From NCBI GenBank assembly GCA_015680905.1, contig CM027377.1:40820501-40884500 (forward strand): 64,000 nucleotides of DNA. The letters are read 5' to 3'. Each line of letters opens with the position of its first letter. The first letter of the stretch is position 1. A program made the position numbers and the translations under genes. The stretch comes from Coptis chinensis. Taxonomy: Eukaryota; Streptophyta; Magnoliopsida; Ranunculales; Ranunculaceae. Under the pieces are notes generated by a model, which saw only the letters and a list, made by a program, of their open reading frames with translations, did not search any database and was not told the origin of the DNA. Positions 3,872 to 60,811 of the stretch are shown piece by piece.

Positions 3872-5047
3872 TGTAACACAGCTGTCGGGTTTGTTATTTC
3901 ATTCGCATTTCAATAAAATTGCAAAAGTTTATTTATAAACAAAAACTAATTCGATCACGTGAATTTGTGAAAGTGGATTTAGGTGAGAAAATGATGAAAA
4001 TAAACTAAAATAGACTTTGATTTCGGAGATAGAAAATCCGTTTGAGCGAATCCTATCTCCGTTAAAAGAGTTAGTCTCGATTTTTGATCCCTAATATCGA
4101 CTCTTCATCTCTGAACGAGCGTTATTAACGCGTGGAATCGATTCAGAACCCCATTTATGGGAGAACTTACTCGGTTCATAATCGTTTATAATTATCGAAA
4201 CACCCTCCCTAACAGAGATAATCCTCACTCGAGCAAAGTTTCTGCTCCGAGATCACATAACTAAGGTGTTATTCTAATTAACAGAAAATAAAACTGAAAA
4301 CAAACTAGAAATTAAATTCTTCATTACACTAGAACAGCAGCAAACTACTCTACTCCTACTGATGGAATGTTAACCATTCCATGAGAAAAATTAAAACTAG
4401 AACCTTCTATTTATAGTTTTTCTGATGGTTTAGATTCAATCCATCTAATCTAAATCTAACGGTTACAAATAAAATATAATATCACAGGGAATATTCTAGG
4501 AATATTCTCTAGGGAATATTCTAAGAATAATCTCTAGAATAGTAATGGGCTTGGACTAAATAGTAACAGGCTTTGGCTTTATCTTCATACTCCAAATCGT
4601 ACGACCATTTTTTGGAAGCTAGATACCATTGCGTAGAGTTTTCTGCGATGATCATTTTAGATGGTCGAATGCTTGAATCAGAGTTAGGACTTAGGAGACG
4701 AAAGATATCGCCGTTTGAAGTTTTCTCCTGACTTTCGGGCTGATTTAGGTCAGTTTGACCAAAATCTCTTCTTTAGCTGGCTTAGGGACTCAAGTTTGGA
4801 TTCTTCAACTTGTTCCATGGTTATCTATGTCCATGAGCTTTGTTAGCAGTTTGGAGCTTTAAATGAGCTGATACTGAAGATTTCAAGTCCAAGCTTTATT
4901 CGACTGTATTTCATGTTAAAACACAGGTTCTATGTGTATTTTATCGTTGTCTGTTGAAACCTGTGAAAACATGAAAATTTAATTAATTTACATTTATTAA
5001 ACACATAATTGACCCAGATTTAATGTCTATACGGGGTTTAAAACACA
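3872..5047 (-). mobile_element. Putative 1.2-kb LTR of a Ty3-gypsy-like element
   Basis: Read on the minus strand, the segment begins TGTGTTTTAAACC and ends TGTTACA, so it has TG...CA borders. It is preceded within 40 nt by a G-rich purine-like stretch (TTTGGGGGTAG, around 5066-5076) and followed by the putative primer-binding site at 3849-3861. Having both signals suggests one LTR shared by internal sequence on both sides, or an old recombinant. I found no second copy of this LTR and no target duplication, so the borders are an inference. It contains three GAATATTC boxes at 4489-4521. Confidence 0.35.
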
Positions 5048-34315: not shown

Positions 34316-34368
34316 CAATTCGTTCTTCTTCATCTCTTTGAGTTAGGTATAGGAATTTATCAAGCAAG

Positions 34369-35388
34369 ATGAGTGGTAACAATGAAGGTTCTTTGAACTT
34401 GTTTTCCAAGTACACAATCATCAGAAAAATTGGGGAAGGGACCTTTGGGCATGTTTTTCTAGCTTGCGATAACCGTCACGGGGAATCTGTTGCAATCAAG
34501 CTCTTGAAGGATCGTTGTCGTTTGTGGGAAGATTGTAAAGAGATGAGGGAACTGAAGGCGCTCGTTGCATTGGGTCATCCGAACATCGTCAAACTCAAAG
34601 ATATCGTCCAAGAAGGTGAGTACCTGGACTTGGTGTTTGAATACATGGATAGGAGTCTGCACCAACTTATTTGTGATAGAACAAGGTTTTTCTCTGAAGA
34701 AAATATTAGAGGTTACTGCTTCCAGATACTTAAAGGAATCGACCATATGCATAGCCATGGATACTTCCACCGCGATCTTAAGCCAGATAACATATTAGTT
34801 TCTGGAAACGTAGTCAAGATTGCTGATTTGGGTTCGTCGCGAGAGTTCTTGTCTGTGGAAGATGATTTGGATTGCACGCGAGAGTTCTTGTCTGATCAAC
34901 CATACACGAATCATATTACAACTCTCTGGTATAGGGCACCCGAGGTTCTGGTCAAGTCTTCCAAGTACGGTGCTGCTATTGATATTTGGGCAATGGGAGC
35001 TATCATGGCTGAATTATTTCTTCTGCAGCCTCTGTTTCGTGGTACGGATGAGGTCGATCAACTTGACAAGATATGCAGCATAAAAGGTAGTCCGTTTTCC
35101 TGGTTTAAGGGTCTTCAAGAAGCAGAAGCACACAACATCCAGTTTCCTGTGTGTTTAGGAATTCCCCTTCAGAAGTTAATACCATCAGCAAGTCGCGATG
35201 CAATTGCGCTAATGGAATCACTCCTATCCTGGGATCCCAATGTCAGGCCTACTGCTGCAGCGGCTCTACGACATCCTTTCTTCAAACCATGTTTCGAAGC
35301 TGAACAGCTGCTTGATTTGGAACTAAGGCTCACTACGGCAATGGCTTTTCCATCTATGAATGGTGAAGTAAATAGGGTCCTGCTCTAG
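34369..35388 (+). CDS. MHK/RCK-like CMGC protein kinase, intronless, altered activation loop
   Basis: The 339-residue protein is a complete eukaryotic kinase domain. It has a glycine loop GEGTFGHV (22-29), VAIK with Lys44, Glu61 in helix C, HRDLKPDN (134-141), DLG (153-155) and WYRAPE (187-192). The C-terminal lobe ends with RPTAAAALRHPFF and LDLELRL, features of plant MHK (male germ cell kinase-like, RCK group). Three things are odd. DFG reads DLG. The TEY-type phosphosite reads TNH. Residues 158-162 REFLS recur at 171-175 through an in-frame 13-codon duplication. Known MHK genes have many introns and a longer C-terminal tail; this copy has neither, so I infer a retrogene. The ATG context AAGATGAG is good. 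Retention of catalytic residues makes residual activity possible. Confidence 0.88.
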   Translation: MSGNNEGSLNLFSKYTIIRKIGEGTFGHVFLACDNRHGESVAIKLLKDRCRLWEDCKEMRELKALVALGHPNIVKLKDIVQEGEYLDLVFEYMDRSLHQLICDRTRFFSEENIRGYCFQILKGIDHMHSHGYFHRDLKPDNILVSGNVVKIADLGSSREFLSVEDDLDCTREFLSDQPYTNHITTLWYRAPEVLVKSSKYGAAIDIWAMGAIMAELFLLQPLFRGTDEVDQLDKICSIKGSPFSWFKGLQEAEAHNIQFPVCLGIPLQKLIPSASRDAIALMESLLSWDPNVRPTAAAALRHPFFKPCFEAEQLLDLELRLTTAMAFPSMNGEVNRVLL

Positions 35389-35939: not shown

Positions 35940-38600
35940 AAGGTATACAACTTTTCAGAGTCTTATTCAAACTTTTAATCATACTAATATCACGCTAATT
36001 CTTAAAATCCCACATCCTAACAAAGTTAGTTCATATCGTCCTATTAGTCTATGCAATATTGTATATAGGATTATCTCTAAAATTCTTGCTAATCGGCTTA
36101 AGCCTTTCTTAGATAAGTTGATCTCTCCTATGCAGTCTGCCTTTGTCAAATAGAGGCAAATATCTGATAATACTATCATTTTACATGAGTTACTGCAAAA
36201 GCTTAAAAGGAAAAAAGGCATACATGGTTGTATGGCCATCAAACTTGATATGCATAAAGCCTTTGATCAGCTGGAATGGCCCTTTGTTTTTAGAATGCTG
36301 GAGTAATTTGGTTTTTGTCGAAAATGGATCACTTGGATTGAGACTTGCTTAACTTCTACTTCTTTCTCCCTCAACCTTAATGGTTCATTTTATGTTCATA
36401 ATTTTTATCAAGAAAAATTTCTTCTCTTTTAGCTTCCAAGCATATTCATGGCATTCATATTTCTAGATCATCTGTACCTGTAACTCATCTCATGTTTGCT
36501 GATGACTGTTTCATTTTCATGCGTACTAACATAGCTGAAGCCCACCATATTTTAAATGGCATCAAACAGTATTGTGTTATGTCTGGTCAGTCGGTCAACT
36601 TTAACAAGTCTTCACTGTTGTTTAGTCATAACTTGCATCATAAGCATAAGAAACTCCTCTCTAAGATTTTAAAAATTCCGTTAACTAATACTAGCAATTC
36701 CTATTTAGGTATTGATTTTAACCCTGCCAAACCCAATCATATTAGTACTTCTAGGATTATGAAAAACGTGTTATCTAGGATACAAAACTGGAACACAAAG
36801 TTTTTGTCAATAGCTGGGCGAAGTATTCTCATTAAAAGTGTCGTGTCTGCTATCCCTGTTTACTCTATGCAAACTAACTTGTATAATAAGTCTTTTTGTC
36901 ACAACCTGGATATGATAAGTGCTAATTTTTGGTGGGGGCATAATGAACATGGTAGTAATAAGTTGCATATGTTAAATTGGTAGGCATGTTGTAGTAAGAA
37001 AAGCGTGGGTGGGGTAGGTTTTAAACAGTCTTTGTATCATAATAAAGCTCTTATAGCTAAGCTGTATTGGAACCTATTGACTAAGACGGATTTGTTATGG
37101 GTTAAGATTATTAAAGATAAGTACTTTCGACATGTTTCCTTTCTGCAAGCCAAGAAAAGTAACTCTGCTTCGAAGTGGTGGAAAAACATCATCAAGGTAA
37201 GAAATGACATCTCCTCTCTTCACTATTGGAGGATAACAGATGGACAAAACATTGATATTTGGGAGGATAATTGGATTCCTTCTCTGCCTTTTAAGAAACA
37301 TTTTGGACCTAAACCAGATCCTATGAGAGCTATGAGGTATGTTTCTGACTTGATTGATAATATTACAAATGCTTGGAACATTAGCTTGTTAAACGAGATG
37401 TTCACTACAGATGTTAGGGATGAGATTCTAAAAACTTGTATTTTCTCACAAAATTTGGATCAGAAGATCATTTGGACTTTAGGAAAGAATGGTATTTTCA
37501 CTGTCAAATTGACATATAGTTGGCTTCTAAGTCAATCTAAGGTTGGTAGGACTCTTAGATCTTTATCTGTTGCCAAAAATACTTGGTGTTATATTTGGAA
37601 ACTTCATATCCCACATCGAGTCAAAATGTTCTTGTGGAAAATGCTTAACGGCATTTTGCCAACTAGGAAAGTGTTGTTTGATCGACATGTTTGTCCTGTG
37701 TCTACCTGTCCTCGTTGTCACTATGCAACTGAAAGCATTGAGCATGCCCTTTTCAGTTGTGTTTATTTAGATAAAATTTGGTTTGCCTCACCCCTTGCTA
37801 TGTGATTTCATTCCTGGAATCAACAGTTTAGTGCTGATGATGTGATCACTAAAGCATCTCTCAATGTACCTCCAAGGATAATACTATTGTTAACTTATCT
37901 ATCCTAGCATCTACTGCCTATATGATTTGGGTAGATAGAAATTCTTTGGTTTTTTATCCCCGTCATAAAGCTATTAACCCAGCTCAGGTGCTGGAACAAG
38001 CACGAAGGTGTCTTATTCTTGCTCATTCTCCCGTGTGTTTGAAATACATGATACCTGACTCTCATCTTCCTAACCTTTTTATGCTAGCATGTGACGGCAG
38101 TTTCAACCCTATTTCATCACGAGCTGCTGTAGGCTACACTTTAAATAAATGGGCTTTTGGCTTATGTTTTCGCAGAAGCGGTGCTTTCGTCCTCGCCAGG
38201 ATCGCAAAAAAGAGGTAGAGCTGCAAGTAGTAAAAGTCGGATTGGAACAAGCTCGTCAGCTAAGTGTTAGCAAGGTGGTGGTTTGTTCAGATAATAAGGG
38301 CATTGTTCAAGAGCTCAATGGCGTTTCATCTACAGTGTCTTGGTGTTGTGAGGGTCTTTTGCATGAGATACTTAATCTCAAAGCTAGTTTTAGTTTATGC
38401 AAAATTGTCTTTTGCCCGAGGGAGTTGATTAGCCATGCCCATCTCATGGCAGCTGCAACAACCCTTCATAGTCCTCTGGTTTGTAATAACCAAGTACCTA
38501 TGCCTGTGAGACTTGGTTTCTCTGAAGTTCAGTCACGTCTATATGAACTATTCGCTATCTGTTAATGAAATCGGAAACTATTTGCTTAAAAAAATAATAA
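35940..38600 (+). mobile_element. Degenerate LINE with reverse transcriptase, zf-RVT and RNase H
   Basis: Plus-strand frames read in order as a plant L1-type ORF2 lacking its 5' part. From 35950 comes reverse transcriptase with SSYRPISLCN, ILANRLKPFL, QSAFVK and a KLDMHKAFD block. At 36425-36500 it resumes with HGIHISR and the catalytic FADD (around 36495). From 37600 to 37760 is a zf-RVT domain (VKMFLWKMLNGILPTR, then CPRC...HALFSC). From 38050 to 38560 is RNase H with LACDGSFNP. There are stops at 36151-36153, after 36980 and near 37805, plus frame changes. The part between the KAFD block and FADD is too short, so the GDPLSP-type core is deleted. The element ends in A-rich sequence near 38590 and is inactive. 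Confidence 0.9.
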
Positions 38601-47087: not shown

Positions 47088-47359
47088 TCACGACATAGGG
47101 TCCCTCTTACCATCATTCTCTTTCTTAGTGGCCAGTGTAACTCGTCGCAGTACCAAATCCCCCACCCAGAAAGTCCGCGGCTTCACTCGCTTATCATACT
47201 GTCTCTGCAACTTTTGGTGATATTCCTCCAGTCGTATGCGCGCTATTTCTCTTTTTTCCTCTATGAGATTCAATTCGGTGACCAAGATCCTCTCATTTAT
47301 TCCCAATTCCACGACTTTGGTTCTTGTCGTTTTCTCTATCAGCTCCACCGGGATGACTG
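47088..47359 (-). pseudogene. Integrase C-terminal part, Tat element (split by CACTA)
   Basis: The minus-strand frame contains a region with ARIRLEEYHQKLQRQYDKRV followed by FWVGDLVLRRV, the chromodomain-less C-terminal end of Ty3-gypsy integrases. Its upstream part lies across the CACTA element at 53200-53340. Counting one copy of the target triplet, the frames on the two sides are in register, so this part was broken by the insertion. Confidence 0.8.
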
Positions 47360-47394
47360 CACTACAACAAATATGACATATGACACCGCTAATT

Positions 47395-47770
47395 TTAGAT
47401 CACTTTCAGCGAAGTGATGTCATAAAAAAACTATGACATCACTTTTCTTAGCATGTGATGTAATAATTATCACATTTTTTTTTAACATCACTTATTTCAG
47501 AAGCTGATATAGTAGAGTTGTACAACATCATTTTAATTAGTGATGTTGAGATAGTGATGTAGTAACACTTTTTTACGTCACTAGCTATGTCACTTATAAA
47601 GTGATGTAATATCTATGTATTCAACATCACTTTAAAAGTGTTGTCACTCACCGTGTCACTTATAAAGTGATGTAATATCTATATATTCAACGTCACTTTA
47701 AAAGTGAATTTGCCAAGTTTTCGAAATCACTTATAATGTGATTTTCAAAAGTATTATTATTAATATACCT
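47395..47770. repeat. Left subterminal repeats of the CACTA element
   Basis: Repeated motifs GTGATGT, ACATCACTTT and GTGTCACTTATAAAGTGATG occur in alternating orientation, including a near-duplicate pair around 47580 and 47655. In CACTA elements such repeats are transposase-binding sites. Confidence 0.85.
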
Positions 47771-48224
47771 CTTAATTAAGTTAATTAGTTAGAAAAAGAC
47801 TATCTAAAAAATTAGGTTAAATAGAAATAAAACAGGGTGCATGGCTGGTTTGCTAGACTAGCCGCCCTTAAATGAAAAATAAAAAATAAAAAACCGCGAC
47901 CAATACCCAAAATGCTTAAACCCCATAAGCAAGGCCCAACAACATAAATTTATAAGACCTAAGACATACGAAGAAGAAAATTAAGAATAGAACTCGCCCT
48001 CACTTCTAAATTTTGGGGATTTTAGGGATGATCTTCAGTATTTTATTTTCCAAAACCCTACAGTCTTTCATTAAACTGAAATCGGAGATTGATTTCCGCG
48101 TGCAAACGAGTTTGATATTAATCGATTACAACATTGAAAGGTTTTTGGATCGAACGAGTAAGTTTTTTCAATTTTAAACTTTGTTTTCTGATTGAATTGT
48201 GAATACCAATACCATGATAATGAG

Positions 48225-48380
48225 CAAGGAACGAAGCTGCTTCTCTAATAGCCCCGTTGAATAGTAGGCGAATGCTGACTCGCTATCTAGCTCACTGAGA
48301 GGGCTTTCTTTAAACGAGGGGAAGGCTTTATAGTGAGGGGAGCTAACACTTCTGGGTTCTGGGGAATTAGCCCTTTCGAT
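48225..48380. other. Possible organelle-derived or other captured block inside the CACTA element
   Basis: The stretch is less AT-rich than its surroundings, with strings such as GAATGCTGACTCGCTATC and CGAGGGGAAGGCTTTATAG that resemble plant mitochondrial DNA in style. I recognise no gene. It may be another captured segment. Confidence 0.2.
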
Positions 48381-49753
48381 CATTCCCTTCTTTTGAATTC
48401 AAGTCATGTTTAGATTCTTGTCTATCTAGTGGTAAAAAGAAGAATTAACTTGTGTTTCTTCAAATCCCTTTTCTGACGGTAAGCCCATGGGATTTCAGCA
48501 ATCACAAATTGGGTCTATACATCATCCCTTTCTCCCTCACAAAAATCTTTCATTTTCCTTAAAAGTCTCTTCTCGAATGTCCAGTTTTCTCTCGTTATAA
48601 CTCCAGCGCTGCTATTAGTATTCTTGTTCCTCACATTTCTATCTTGCCCTCCTTCGGTTCTTCTATAAGGCAGCTTCTGATTAGAGGAGAGGTGCTGCTT
48701 TGTGAAGATGAAGTAAGAAGAGAAGGGGAGGAACAAGAGAAGAATATCTTAGCGGGAGGTAGATAAGAGCTGCTGGGGAGAAGAGGAAATGGAAGAAGAA
48801 AAGAGGAGGAAGGAGGAAAGAATTTTTGTTTAAGTTTTTGCCTAGTTGAAAAGTTTATGTCACTTATGCTGTCCTCATAAGCCTGATAGTAGTTCCTAGT
48901 TTTGACATGGTGTCTACTGCAATAAATTACTGGAATATGGAGACATGGAATGATATATATTTTATAGGAGAACGAGTTTGTTTTTACTCCACCGGTGAAG
49001 TTGAAATAGTCACTGCAGAGTGATTGGTGTTAGATAATCGATGAAAAAAAATATAACTATGGAATTAAATGAATTAAGTTTTCAAGTTAGCTATTCAAGG
49101 TAGAATCACTGATTTGGTAATTTAAATTTAAAATGGATTTATATGGCAAGACCTGTTGTCCTTTGTGATACTTGTTTGTATTACATTAAAAATTAAAATT
49201 CAGTTGTTAATTGTTATGTATTACTACACCACAATTAGTTTCACTTTCATGACTTTTTTCGTCATTCATGTATTTCTTGAAATTCTATTTCTTAAAAGGA
49301 GAAATGAACTGTAGTGTTTATTCATACTTCTTACCGACTTCTTATATGCTGAGTCTAACTTTGGTGGTGCCCGCATATTACCATAGAGCAACAAACCCCT
49401 ATAGTCATTACTAAATGGAATAGTGCTTCGTTACCGTTTTTTTTTTGGGTAGCCTTATCAGAATCTTTAAATTCTTATGGTATTATGATAGTTATAGTAA
49501 CCTTAATGCATTTCTTACATGGTTAAGTCTTTCTGCTACACACGGACTGATATAAAACCTGAAATAGAATTCAAACCCAAGTAAGATGGTATGGTATGTG
49601 TAACCATGTTGTGAAACCACAGACGTGTGATTGGAATCTCTCCTTGTACTTTTCGAATCCTGCCATAATCAGATGGGAGGATCTATTATAAACAGAAGCA
49701 ATCAAGAAATAACTTACTGTCTGTTTTCTGAATTATGTTTCCACATTCTTCAG

Positions 49754-49857
49754 GTGTTGTGCAATCGAAGAGGTCAATATGGAGATTGAGAATAATTACC
49801 GATTTCTTTCGGTCCATAATCAATTTCATAAGCATTTTCTTCGGGACTTTGTTCTCG
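49754..49857 (+). pseudogene. Captured SelK/SelG-like protein exon
   Basis: This exon is bounded by TTCTTCAG and a GTATAT donor. It reads VVQSKRSIWRLRIITDFF followed by a hydrophobic stretch IINFISIFFGTLFS. This matches the N-terminal part of plant SelK/SelG-like (glycine-rich, single transmembrane, ER membrane) proteins: a basic SKRSIWRL segment, then a membrane helix beginning ITDFF. The Gly-rich cytosolic tail encoded by later exons in the parent gene is missing. Splice borders are preserved, so the fragment came from genomic DNA and not a cDNA. It cannot make the full protein alone. Confidence 0.75.
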
Positions 49858-49984
49858 GTATATTATGGAGTTTTTAATTTTATTTCTTTAATGCTCTCCT
49901 TTTTCGTTTTCCTTTTCTTTTTCAACAATGAAGATACACATTTTTCTTTTGAAAACAATAATCATGTAGCAGCACATTCCTAGT

Positions 49985-50180
49985 CATCACTGCCCCCTGA
50001 TGCCAATAACTGTCTTGGGGAGTTGAGTTGGGGGCTTTCTCTTCTGGTTGCTTCTGGGTCCGGTCTAAGGTTGGTTCTAAGGATGGTTTGGAACCCTTCC
50101 CTTGAACAGGAGCTTCAGTTTAAGTAGCCACTGGTGTCGAAGCTGAAACTGCATGATCAGTTGTAGATGGAAAAGCTTAA
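49985..50180 (-). other. Possible fourth captured exon (unidentified)
   Basis: The minus strand stays open for about 60 codons with one stop. It has Pro, Thr, Lys, Gln and Glu-rich composition (for example TLDRTQKQPEEKAPNS) unlike the AT-rich flanks. No family is recognised. It could be another host fragment or a chance frame. Confidence 0.25.
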
Positions 50181-50581
50181 TTGTCTCGTCCGCTACTATC
50201 CCTCTGATTATCGATGTTGGGTATTTTACCATTTGATTTATTACATTCTATTGTTGCATCTTATCTTCATGGGGTACTTGTTTGTTTATTAAAATTTGAT
50301 GTTTTGTGTTACACTCAATTTTCCATTAAATTGAACTTCCACTTGGTGTTTTTGGCGTTTTGAGTAGTCGGAGTTATCATTTCTATCGATTTCTTCAGAT
50401 GTACTGTTTGTAACTGTTGTAATTCAATTCTTCCGGGGCAACCTTGCTACTCTCCGCAATAGGTAGAGTTGTTCCGAATTCTCTGTCTTTCATTTTTGTG
50501 TAGTAAAATTGTTCTGTTCAGGATATGCTGCTGTCCTTTTACTTATGATGTTTTTTTATTAATATATATCTGAGAAAACAG

Positions 50582-51142
50582 CTTAAACCATTGCCGAAAC
50601 TGGAACTATCCGAGGAAATGGTAAACAGTGCTACAACCTCATTTCGTGTTAAAATCAATTACATGCTCCTTATGGCACATGATATCACCATTGGAAAAGA
50701 CTTCAGGCTATTCTTTAAGGTATGTGATGAAACTTACTTTAGATCATGTACTGTTAAACTATATTGTGAAGACTTTTTCCACCCATTGAAGGTGGTTTTA
50801 TTTGGACGAGTTATCTTGCCAAATTACAATTCAAACTTTCATTCATTTGGTGGTCAGATAGGAAACTTCTGAATGCCCATAAAGAGAAGGACTACGATCA
50901 CGCATTGGTCCTATCCATTATAGGTTTGGGTTGGTCCTACATGTGTGCCAACAAACTATTTTTCCACTGCTAGGCCATTTTTGGGCCTTTTTGTTATGTA
51001 TGTTCCTTAAAATGATAGATGCGCAATAATTGGGTTGTGAGGTATGCTTAGCTAATGAATTTTTTTTACCTACAGGTCGTGGTTTGTCTATAGCTCTTGT
51101 CTGTCACTGGTAGCTTCTCATTTTTCACACTTGCATATATCA
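50582..51142 (+). pseudogene. Captured reticulon-like (RTNLB) fragment, two exons and intron
   Basis: Exon 1 (50582-50719) follows an AAACAG acceptor and reads [15 protein letters not shown], then a segment with [19 protein letters not shown]. This is the central reticulon-homology linker of plant RTNLB proteins, ER membrane-curvature proteins with paired hydrophobic hairpins. An intron with GTATGT and CTACAG borders (50720-51075) leads to exon 2 (51076-about 51142), which begins VVVCL, has an in-frame TAG and continues LLSVTGSFSFFTLAYI, the following hydrophobic hairpin. Exon phase is preserved across the intron. The rest of the gene is absent and the TAG breaks it. The genomic intron shows DNA-level capture. 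Confidence 0.85.
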
Positions 51143-51429
51143 GTATGCTATATTATTTTGAATATTCAAGCCTATTTGATTTTGTGATGGTGTTAAAAAA
51201 GCATCACTTGCTGATATTGGATATTTGGATCAAATGATATATATATCCAATTATATTCTCTGATTTTTGGTGGTTCAAAATGGCATGATAGATTTATTAA
51301 AGAAGACCATGTAATATTTTTTCAATTACACTTGAAAAATAAGTATATTACTCTTAACCAACTTCATGCGGCTAAAAGAAGGTCACATTTTTCTGTCGCA
51401 GAAAAGAGGTGTGGCTGAAGTGTGAGCTT

Positions 51430-51801
51430 GTGCAGAGGTGACGCAGAGCTTGTGCAGAGGAGAGCACTTATGTTAAACGGAACTCTTTTGGGAGGGTGAA
51501 ACATTAGACTTTCCTGGGAGTGTAGCCCTCCAAACAAACAGGTTCATTGTTGCTTTGCTTGTTTATAATCATTCTTCCCGTTTATCAATATATGTGAATG
51601 TATATTAATCTGACAGATTTATATGATACGTCATATGGGTGGACACAACCACAACCATACCCAAACCAGTGGAATGGTGTTGGGTATTATGGATACAACC
51701 AAGTTAGGTTACGAATCCTACGGATATGCCCTTCCCGCTCAAGATCCTAACATGTATGCTTATGGTGGAACCTATCTTGGATATGGAAATTACCCATAAC
51801 G
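51430..51801 (+). pseudogene. Captured RBP45-type RNA-binding protein fragment, two exons
   Basis: Exon 1 (about 51430-51541) encodes, with small indels and a stop, a CAEEALMLNGT-like stretch followed by LLGG.NIRLSWG..PSNKQ. That is the end of the last RRM, with its RNP1-distal strand. An intron (51542-51616, GT...ACAG) joins exon 2 (51617 to about 51801), the Gln/Tyr/Gly-rich tail. This reads SYGWTQPQPYPNQWNG, then after a 1-nt shift near 51700, GYESYGY and QDPNMYAYGG. These features match plant RBP45/47-type nuclear poly(U)-binding proteins. A local duplication GCTTGTGCAGAGG at the exon 1 start and the frameshifts show decay. Most of the three-RRM protein is missing. Confidence 0.8.
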
Positions 51802-52014
51802 ACAGGTGTGTTTTCATGTGTCTCACTTGTAAAGTAGTTTAATTAATAAATTGAACTTAGAAAGATATTTCTATAGATCCCGAGTATATTGTTAGTTTAA
51901 GTGTATTATAACTTAAGATATACATTATTGAGCATATTCTATATTGATTTGGTATCAAGGATACTTGAGATGACATTCAACATTCAAGTTTGATACCAAG
52001 TGTGGCTATTGGGA

Positions 52015-52140
52015 TTCTTTGAAGAGGTTTGTTTTGTAATAATTGTGATGTTGGGATGGATTATTTGAAGTGGCTTCTTTTGTAATAATTGTGATGTTGG
52101 GATGAATTATTTGAAGAGGCTTCTTTTGTAATAATCATCT
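52015..52140 (+). repeat. 46-bp tandem repeat inside the CACTA element
   Basis: Three consecutive units starting near 52021, 52067 and 52113 share GAAGAGGCTTCTTTTGTAAT and GTGATGTTGGGATG strings at a 46-bp period. They are non-coding and lie downstream of the RBP45 fragment. Confidence 0.85.
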
Positions 52141-52819
52141 GTTGGGTAAAGTTGTTCATTGGAAAAGAGTTTGGTGCACCTGAAGCACTGGTGCAGCTTA
52201 CATGCTATTTATGTTACTGCCCAAATCATTAACAGCTATTTAAATATGTTTTTCTGGGTAGACACAAGTTTTAGATTACTCCGCTAGTGATGCAGGAAAA
52301 TGGACGACAACGTTTTTATGTTAACTCAACCTCCAACCAGCTTTTGGCATAGGGCTGGACCTGATCTTGAACACAAGTATCTGTCTTTTGTAGAACTTCT
52401 TTTGTCATTCAGGTACTATATTATGCGGATGTTCCGTCTGTTTATTTTCCTTTTATAAAATTTGCATTGATTTTCTAGAACAATGTTTCATACTGCAGAA
52501 AAAAGAAATTAAAGCAAAGTGATTTGTTAGGTTGTGATAGGTTTTTGGATTAAATTGATTGCATCAAGCCAGGCTGTGATAGGTTCTTGGTTGGATGATT
52601 GTGGTTCTATTTGGCTCATTTCAATACTGCAGATTAGATTTTGTTGGTATATGTTGGCTCGTTACAATTTTTTGTATATAGTGTAATATTTGTAATTGGA
52701 GATGATATTTATGTGATGAATGTGATTTTAAGATACATTTCATCTTTATTTGATGATAAATGACCAGGAAAATGGTATTATATTGGGATGATATTGGCAA
52801 TTTTGTTCTTTTATTATTT

Positions 52820-53180
52820 TGATAAATGGGACATCACTTTTAAAGTGATTTATAGAGTTATTTCACATCACTTTACAAGTTATTTGGAATTTGAAATGAA
52901 ACGTCACTTCCTAAGTGATGTTAATTGACCTTACTAATTTCACTTAAAAAGTGATGTTAAACGTTATGACATTACTTGTGGACATCAATTAAAAAGTGAT
53001 GCAAAGTTATAACATCACTTGTGGACATCAATTAAAAAGTGATGTGAAGTAACATCACTTGTGGACATCGTTTAAAAAGTGATGTGGAAAACCCTGACTT
53101 TTCACGTCGCCACCATTTACATCACTCTCAAAAGTGATGTCTTATACTTTTGACATCACTTTTTAAGTGATGGGAAATGC
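52820..53180. repeat. Right subterminal repeats of the CACTA element
   Basis: Multiple copies of ACATCACTT, AAGTGATGT and GTGGACATCAATTAAAAAG repeat with spacings of about 40-50 bp, mirroring the left end. They are the presumed transposase-binding region. Confidence 0.85.
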
Positions 53181-53196
53181 CATTTATGTTGTAGTG

Positions 53197-53861
53197 CTGC
53201 TTCCACTCCATATGCCATGGCGAATGGTGATTCCTTAGTAGACGTCCGCGGTGTGGTGCGATAAGCCCATAACACGTGATTCAACTCGTCCGCCCACGCA
53301 CCTTTACGGTCCTCCAATTTTCTCTTTAAGTTATCCATTATGATTTTCTTCGACGCCTCGGCTTAACCATTTCCCTCAGGATTATAGGGGGGCTGAGAAC
53401 CCCTGCTTCACCCTAAATGCCTGAAGAAACTCTCGCACTTTTCCTCTAGTAAACTAAGTTCCATTATCTGCGATGACTGTATGGGGCAGCCCGAACTGCA
53501 GATGATATTCTCCCATAAGAATTTCTTCACATTCTCTTCCTTAACCTGTTGTAGAGCCACACCCTCCACCCATTTGGTAAAATAATCCGTAGCAGCCAAC
53601 ATAAACCTCCTTTTGCTGTTTGCCATTGGCAGAGGCCCAACAATATCCAGCCCCCACATGGAGAATGGCCAAAGGCTCAGCTAAAGAATGTATGAACGGT
53701 GCAAACCTTTGGCATTTCTCACATTTCTTGGCGTACTTTGTGGCGTCTCTCTTCATATGAGGCCAAAAATACCCCTGTGATATCAACCTATGGGTAATTA
53801 TTCGCCCTGCAGAATGACTCCCGCAATCGCCTTCATGAACCTCTGCCAAAAACTCCTGCAC
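53197..53861 (-). pseudogene. Integrase N-terminal and core part, Tat element
   Basis: Broken minus-strand frames give the HHCC zinc domain (HEGDCGSHSAGR, then CEKCQRF). Then follow the catalytic-core start WGLDIVGPLP and TDYFTKWVEG, and the late-core motif LWAYRTTPRTSTKESPF just before the CACTA insertion. Frameshifts lie near 53650 and between 53408 and 53340, and the middle TDNG-type region is mutated. The C-terminal remainder is at 47088-47359. Confidence 0.85.
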
Positions 53862-59251: not shown

Positions 59252-60811
59252 TTATTCCATTTCCACATAGGCACTACTACTTGTTTGTGCCGGAGTTGAG
59301 TCTATATCCATGGCTGAAGTTCTAGGAGGAGATGAAGGATGCACCTTCACATCAGGATATGCAGCTTTGTACCTTGCTCGCAGGCCTTCATCAACTAGTT
59401 GGACACCATTTAATTGGTTACCAAGCGAAATCCACCCAGCATGTGTGTTGTGCATTCGTGCAAACAATTCGAGCTTTCTTGTTCCAGGACTTCTCTCCAA
59501 CAAAGCGTACATCTCATCAGGTTTACGACTTGTCTCTCGAACCTCAGCAACAACTACATCTGTATCCATGTTCCTATTTATTTCAGGGTTCCCCTTTATC
59601 CCAACAAGGCAATGTTCCTTACTGTGATTCAGCCAATGACCTGTTCGTCCTGTTCTAATAATTTGCTGAAGCTGATTAGTCTTCACCCAAATCAGCTCCT
59701 CGATTACCCCCAAAGTTTTAAGCATTCCCGTCCAAGCTCCATCGCTCGTCCGGTGACCCAGAGAAAAATCAAACCATCTTCCTGCAGTTCTGGAACATTA
59801 AGCTTTTTCATCTCTTCATCAGCCATTGTTCCGGCAAGTCCATATGAATGTCCCAAGGCGGGTCAGCCATAATAACTCCAAATTTACCTAATATATCCAT
59901 CTTAAATGATCGAATATCACAGTTAATCCATTGTGGCTGACCAAGCTCCATCTCCGAACAATATTCAGCACGCCGAGGCTTTATTGGTTTAGATTGAGAA
60001 AATGCTTCAAAGCCCATCCTCATAGCTAGTACATCTTGGGTTGGTTCATCATCAAGCTCATAGTGAATATACTTGCACATAATCATGCGACGACAAGTTC
60101 TCAAAAAAGGGCAATCGCCTAAGCTAATATCAGTATGTTGAGAGATTATGCGCCGATAATGAAGCTTCATACATGGAGCGTACAAACCATATTGTTGTCG
60201 TCGACAATCTTCTTTGGTTAAATATGTACAGTGCTCCTTTATTTGAGAACCTTCTTCACTTTTGAACTTAGCAGCCACAGTAGTTTCATTATATGTCGGT
60301 CGGTTAATAAGGTCTAAAAGCTCCTCTCCTATCTTAGAATTCTCTTGCTCCCTAAACGACTTCTTACTCAACATTGCTTCAAGAGCCTTCATACCATCCT
60401 CTTCTTCACTAATAAGACTACCACTTGCTGTTGAACTTGGGGAAAAGGATGGAATCTGCGATTCCTGACTATCACATCGTCGTATCTTATAAAAAGGTTC
60501 TTTTTCAGGTGCTACTAATTGTTGTTCCAGCGTAGAAAAAGACGGCTGAGCCGGCACAAAGGAACGTTTGTTTTGGGGTGTGACAGATGCATTATTAAGC
60601 TTAGGATTACAGTCTAGGGTAGGAGGGTAACGCAGGCCATTGAAGGCAGAAACAAACTTAAGAGATAAATCGAGAGACGAAACTAGATCAGGAACAAGGT
60701 TTTGAAGAGATGAGATATGTTGTTGTTGAAGGAGTGCTGATTTTTAATTCTAGTTTCAAGATTTTTACAAATCTCTCTAATGTCGTCATTGCAGTCCGAT
60801 TGGATTTCCAT
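59252..60811 (-). pseudogene. MTA: MTA/METTL3-type m6A RNA methyltransferase retro-pseudogene
   Basis: The minus strand encodes, without introns, a plant MTA-type mRNA N6-adenosine methyltransferase, the catalytic subunit of the m6A writer complex. The start is METTL3-like MEIQSDCNDD (60811) with frameshifts in the first 40 codons. Then comes the central segment with LSKKSFREQENSKIGEELL, the CCCH-type region (CTYLTKEDCRRQQYG, CPFLRTC, CKYIHYE), and the catalytic ADPPWDIHMDLP (around 59840). A 4-nt deletion follows directly, then after about 95 bp a 7-nt deletion, then the rest: TGRTGHWLNHSKEHCLVGIKG and RKLELFARMHNTHAGW. About 200 residues between the N-terminus and LSKKSF seen in full-length family members are absent. 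The gene is intronless whereas the parent has many introns, so I infer a processed pseudogene. Confidence 0.88.

Follow-up and report, generated by a model that had tools for sequence, protein, structure and literature searches.

The window (the whole 64-kb stretch of Coptis chinensis DNA analyzed here, C1:40820501-40884500, in whose coordinates all features are given) contains a 5,837-bp element at 47360-53196 that is very probably a Pack-CACTA, a member of a non-autonomous CACTA (En/Spm-type) family with many copies, moved in trans and with an interior built stepwise from DNA. It carries fragments of three host genes, which encode a SelK/SelG-like protein, an RTNLB reticulon, and an RBP45-type RNA-binding protein. 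Multi-gene capture by CACTA elements is already known; noteworthy here are the orientation of the captures and their layered ages. The genome searched was a 935.6-Mb assembly in which nine contigs, of 85 to 125 Mb each, are of chromosome size. The element and its insertion site are made up as follows:

47360-53196, 5,837 bp: Pack-CACTA element
47357-47359, unstranded: left copy of the CTG target-site duplication (sequence and empty-site join)
53197-53199, unstranded: right copy of the CTG target-site duplication (sequence)
47360-48340, plus: 5′ end, terminal inverted repeat CACTACAACA and subterminal repeats (sequence, repeats, siblings)
52249-53196, plus: 3′ end, subterminal repeats and terminal inverted repeat TGTTGTAGTG (sequence, repeats, siblings)

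The terminal inverted repeats are of the CACTA type, CACTACAACA opening the element and TGTTGTAGTG closing it, and the subterminal repeats consist of a 20-nt unit present 10 times within about 0.4 kb of both ends, together with many inverted pairs, in both orientations. When 150 bp of each flank were joined and one CTG was dropped, a single minus-strand frame was open across the junction (about 47088-47359 plus 53200-53362, minus), and we take this restored frame to be typical of a long terminal repeat (LTR)-retrotransposon integrase. The element interrupts an LTR-retrotransposon integrase-like frame. Because the joined flanks give a frame that is open across the junction, the ends are genuine, and the exact CACTA ends and CTG duplication described by an earlier, sequence-only reading of this DNA stand as stated. 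That degenerate host pieces simply lie side by side here, with CACTA ends by coincidence, has a negligible probability: the duplication matches, the empty-site frame is open, many siblings have the same ends around other interiors, and the parents of the fragments lie elsewhere, which together refute it.

A six-frame Pfam scan of the whole element found no transposase family (an Integrase_H2C2 match at E=0.095 was taken as noise), in agreement with the earlier remark that no transposase frame is present; the element is therefore non-autonomous, a class included in the CACTA superfamily. It has the inverted ends, 3-bp duplication, and subterminal repeats of CACTA (En/Spm) elements and lacks the transposase, a feature of autonomous members only. 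It also has host coding DNA between its inverted repeats and is repeated as a family rather than being a singleton, as in Pack-TYPE (Pack-CACTA) elements. Helitrons have neither terminal inverted repeats nor a target duplication, and both are present in the window element, which rules that class out. Pack-MULEs have MULE-type terminal repeats and a duplication of about 9 bp, and that class is ruled out by the CACTA ends and 3-bp duplication.

The interior contains three host-gene fragments, whose parents were sought by searching the genome with window positions 49600-51850 and then reading short stretches around the matches:

48931-49981, plus: SelK/SelG-like fragment, consisting of intron, exon 49754-49857, and intron (parent L030, Pfam)
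50346-51167, plus: RTNLB reticulon fragment, consisting of a truncated exon to 50462 and exons 50582-50719 and 51076-51142, with introns between (parent L029, Pfam)
51437-52052, plus: RBP45 3′ part, consisting of the end of the third RNA recognition motif (RRM3; exon 51447-51541), a terminal exon from about 51617, a stop at 51797-51799, and 3′ sequence (L034, L031)

Pfam matched SelK_SelG (PF10961, E=5.8e-11) and Reticulon (PF02453, E=5.5e-9) in the window segments, both on the plus strand, and these were the sole credible families over six frames of the whole element. The SelK parent L030 (positions 897-1921, C4:789196-790220) is 96.1% identical to window 48931-49981 over 1022 aligned bases, with a Kimura two-parameter (K2P) distance of 0.040; its locus has three SelK exons, the first with MAYIERG and the third rich in glycine, and also matches SelK_SelG, so that the exon piece proposed earlier at 49754-49857 is supported by both Pfam and parent. 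A further 29-bp match to this parent is found at 48490-48518, just upstream of the main parental match. The RTNLB parent L029 (797-1611, C7:95157096-95157910) is 94.3% identical over 807 aligned bases (K2P 0.060), its reticulon exons are open, and Reticulon is matched in both parent and window. The reticulon family given earlier for 50582-51142 was right and its two exons lie at those limits, but the fragment starts earlier, at about 50346, with the truncated upstream exon; this start was set by eye, and the L029 match is unbroken from 50358 to 51167. Positions 50358-50496 were at first taken for the beginning of an ankyrin gene; the contiguous L029 match shows them to be reticulon.

The RBP45 fragment in the window has no Pfam match, and its identity comes from the genomic RBP45 gene L034 (C9:72569845-72570251), which is 88.7% identical to window 51437-51843 over 397 aligned bases (K2P 0.125). 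In the 1.4 kb read at L034, RRM3 is open and the tail is of the RBP45 type. A 135-residue RBP45 piece from L034 gave 170 protein matches; among the 120 listed, the named ones were almost all from plants and several were RBP45/RBP47. With its RRM part, structural matches to NAM8 and TIA-1 were obtained. A second relative, L031, has a match extending to window 52052; its stops and frameshifts mark it as another degenerate copy, and it was rejected as the parent in favor of L034, the gene with open frames. The family named in the earlier reading for about 51430-51801 is thus upheld, and the extent is refined to exons at 51447-51541 and from about 51617 to the stop. All three family assignments, made from motifs by eye, were correct, and searching the same genome, as proposed with them, gave parent loci at other sites for every fragment as well as sibling elements.

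The parents of all three fragments are intact over the stretch read and lie on other chromosomes (C4, C7, and C9). Introns are retained, as had been noticed from the sequence, and nine of 10 splice sites have the same dinucleotides as the parent; the remaining one, where the terminal exon of RBP45 has its acceptor, is uncertain. Since introns were retained, capture was from DNA and not via spliced RNA. The three genes do lie on one strand in one orientation, as claimed, but not directly in a row; other sequence separates the pieces at 48341-48930, about 49978-50345, and 51168-51436. The remaining interior consists of the following modules:

48341-48930, unstranded, 590 bp: sequence shared by the window element and sibling L032 (C6) alone
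49978-50304, plus: older element module common to L017, L019, and L020 and partly to L011 and L022 (sibling comparison)
51168-51421, plus: element module that begins at the end of the reticulon match and recurs in L033 and, as far as 51379, in L031
52157-52204, plus: short stretch, probably a rearranged leftover, that matches a different part of L031 at 98% identity (L031 comparison)

A donor of 48341-48930 was sought in the assembly and none was found. At 52012-52149, a 46-bp unit is repeated three times in tandem (91% and 72% identity to the first), overlapping the end of the RBP45-derived part.

The arrangement of an internal SelK exon, internal reticulon exons, and an RBP45 terminal exon with 3′ untranslated region resembles a gene, and a selected chimeric gene, transcribed and used, would account for the single orientation, the gene-like order of exon types, and the nine of 10 parental splice dinucleotides. 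We consider this improbable. The reticulon copy has two in-frame stops in its exons, each a tryptophan codon changed from TGG to TAG, and the RBP45 copy has frameshifts; retention of nine to 10 splice sites by chance would not be improbable at such divergence, about 1.5 hits being expected over 20 bases by a rough estimate; and a strong donor-like GTAAGT at 48158 was found at that position in none of the 29 siblings examined. A built-in exon trap, in which a conserved leader would supply this strong donor, is likewise unsupported. The fragments are most likely decayed passengers, and the element most likely does nothing for the host, but the fragments could be spliced into chimeric transcripts, given their single orientation and kept splice sites.

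The three captures appear to have been added stepwise, RBP45 first, RTNLB next, and SelK last, with each newer piece nearer the 5′ end, because the order of divergence from the parents, rising from SelK through RTNLB to RBP45, is matched by the distribution of the fragments in the genome. Distribution was assessed with window 49600-51850 as query, 40 of 56 candidates being scored. Among the scored places, SelK is limited to the window, its parent, and a single sibling (L032, C6). Three other copies have reticulon exon 3, and another four have shorter pieces of the reticulon. Part of the RBP45 tail is found in 13 places besides the window and parent, some of them short and not all demonstrated elements. 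L032 is 95.7% identical to window 47645-50318, and the window is paired with this other SelK carrier in the 5′-end tree (support 0.91). The block at 48341-49977 is missing from L011, L017, L019, L020, and L022, which have 26-44 bp in its place and then continue from window 49978 onward (49983 in L017). At the right SelK junction, the parent reads ATTCCT|GACG, L011 and L019 read GGTCCT|AGTC, and the window reads ATTCCTAGTC, with a shared 4-bp TCCT; the SelK piece thus meets the older module at 49978-50304 through a 4-bp microhomology.

From these observations, an ancestor would have acquired the RBP45 3′ fragment, a descendant the reticulon fragment, and a recent descendant the SelK exon, 5′ of the older material, with movement in trans by a transposase presumably encoded elsewhere in the genome. 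The likeliest route would be repair of an excision gap with a switch to other loci and joining via short homologies.

The family to which the element belongs was surveyed with its first 841 bp (40 places scored, including the window, of 324 first-look candidates) and its last 1347 bp (40 scored, including the window, of 364), and 30 siblings were fetched (L009-L028, L032, and L039-L047). Both ends were located in 16 of the first 20 siblings, with identical 3-bp flanks in 12 of these 16 and lengths of 3.1 to 7.2 kb; three of nine further siblings had both end motifs, all three with matching 3-bp flanks. Similarity at the 5′ end breaks off variously among siblings, at about 500 to 981 bp, that at the 3′ end does likewise, and the interiors differ, the pattern to be expected of elements that retain their ends and have their middles replaced. 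Two siblings, L023 and L027, contain an ankyrin-gene piece inside a captured reticulon piece, a capture nested in a capture. Just past the 3′ end of sibling L045, at oriented positions 3941-4234, there is a frame that by eye resembles a CACTA transposase and is perhaps part of a neighboring, different CACTA element.

Several observations weigh against this stepwise account. Only one capture junction could be traced to microhomology; the reticulon seems to abut the following module bluntly, and the left edge of SelK is unclear. The capture ages are ordinal only, because the copies drift and the parents with which they are compared are partly coding and differ in content. A search for an autonomous partner with these ends gave none: Transposase_21 (PF02992) had 2715 first-look candidates in the genome, of which 150 were scored, all above the cut-off, and between the 148 scored Transposase_21 places on C1-C9 and the 80 scored end places the smallest distance was 32 kb, most candidates of both kinds being outside the scored sets. 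Finally, the 5′- and 3′-end trees conflict in places, for example at L009, L015, and L024: L009 groups with L015 and L024 at the 5′ end (0.90) and falls outside their 3′ clade (1.00). This suggests exchange of ends between siblings, which would complicate a simple linear history, and it is also what favors a route other than gap repair, reported for Arabidopsis Pack-CACTA (extracts of PMC13317346 and PMC8903248), in which two nearby family insertions are mobilized as one unit with the intervening host DNA and the inner ends are then lost. We regard such hybrid elements as a possible but unlikely source of the captures, as there are captures within older captures (the ankyrin piece splitting the reticulon in L023 and L027), the SelK block occupies the position of the 26-44 bp seen in siblings between two older modules, and no inner terminal-repeat copy with fewer than two mismatches in 10 lies within the window element.

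The shared orientation of the three captures raised the question of orientation in the family. A Pfam scan of both strands at one threshold covered the window and 22 sibling interiors; the siblings outside the scan were L013, L018, L022, L024, L026, and L027, which are close relatives of scanned copies, and L014 and L040. For L019-L021, L032, L042-L044, and L046, the 3′ end was not in the stretch, and the scanned part may exceed the element. Orientation here is relative to the element ends only, not to a promoter. The captures found by Pfam in siblings, all in the window plus orientation, are the following:

L023 (placed by eye), plus: ankyrin and reticulon
L016, plus: mTOR domain, three colinear pieces
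L028 and L039, plus: protein kinase
Two members, one being L047 (placed by eye), plus: ribosomal protein S27e
L045, plus: EF-G C-terminus
L044, plus: pyridoxal decarboxylase (Pyridoxal_deC) and MSL2/3 channel (MSL2_3)

With the SelK and RBP45 captures of the window included, 10 of 10 distinct captures have the same orientation (one-sided p=0.001). Without the window's three captures, the count is seven of seven (p=0.008), and this is the fairer figure because those three prompted the question. The source of two of the 10 captures, L044, has its matching 3′ end 10.2 kb from its 5′ end and is possibly a composite element. Two matches were on the opposite strand: RVT_3 (E=2.4e-20), a retroelement-type domain assigned by eye to L021 (a copy in which no 3′ end was located), and a weak match to MCEL_GT_NTPase (E=9.6e-4) that was not placed in a locus. 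Counting one or both gives 10/11 (p=0.006) or 10/12 (p=0.019), and 7/8 (p=0.035) or 7/9 (p=0.090) without the window's three. Plus-strand matches to CNNM (0.009) and GDT1 (0.015) were kept out of the tally. The one-orientation bias is therefore suggestive, short of proven. We found no report of family-wide capture orientation in CACTA elements in the open-licence literature, a partial sample. We offer only tentatively the idea that this family gains host pieces directionally, in one orientation relative to its ends, with newer captures further 5′ in this lineage and hence an internal order of age.

Elsewhere in the window, two long intronless frames lie on the minus strand at 59252-60743; the second matches MT-A70 (E=1.1e-31), and the first, which has no Pfam match, resembles, by eye, the upstream region of that same N6-methyladenosine (m6A) methyltransferase (MTA), so that the pair is possibly a decayed retrocopy. 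An unbroken protein kinase frame of 348 residues (Pkinase, E=7e-63) is found on the plus strand at 34342-35388, and remains of a reverse transcriptase of the long interspersed nuclear element (LINE) type at 36402-37805, plus (RVT_1, E=1.4e-4 at 36402-36983, the next frame by eye).

Extracts of published work describe several comparable systems. Tgm-Express1, a CACTA element of 5.7 kb in soybean, carries pieces of five unrelated host genes, exons and introns alike (PMC1947982), and resembles the window element in size, class, and possession of several unrelated gene pieces; Tgm-Express1 lies in a gene intron and its chimeric spliced transcripts have been shown, whereas the window element lies in a retrotransposon, is known from DNA alone, and captured other genes. 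The Tpn1 family of Ipomoea nil numbers 339 non-autonomous copies, in which the ends are conserved and captured host sequence has taken the place of the interior (PMC5105172), as in the Coptis family, but in a different plant and with different captured genes, and a putative autonomous Tpn1 copy is known, whereas none was identified among the scored Coptis places. Captured fragments can join the transcripts of the gene in which they land, as with Tgm-Express1 (PMC1947982) and with Tpn1 in DFR-B (PMC5105172). Pack-CACTA elements of Arabidopsis and maize share with the window element the CACTA ends, duplication, captured coding DNA, and missing transposase, and those of maize often carry pieces of several loci (PMC8903248). 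In extracts of that survey, the orientation of non-autonomous elements is described as hard to define and no tally of capture orientation is given, whereas orientation is uniform in the scanned Coptis copies. Captured gene fragments are also reported in Chenopodium CACTA elements (PMC8978399), and conserved ends with unrelated middles in CACTA elements are summarized in a lettuce paper (PMC8195511). Successive captures over several transpositions were reconstructed from related copies of maize Helitrons (PMC3288121); the stepwise build-up in the Coptis family is read likewise, although Helitrons are another kind of element.

More than one mechanism of capture has been proposed, and the Coptis family combines many copies, resolvable modules, parents in the same assembly, junctions whose relative order in time can be read, and uniform orientation in the scanned copies. 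The sequence of all copies could by itself distinguish gap repair from hybrid elements and from selection acting on antisense captures. If directional gain is true, the internal order of such an element would be a fossil record of its captures, and either capture itself would be polar, or antisense captures would be weeded out (for example on account of antisense RNA that they would produce against the parent), or exon-trap-like transcripts would be favored.

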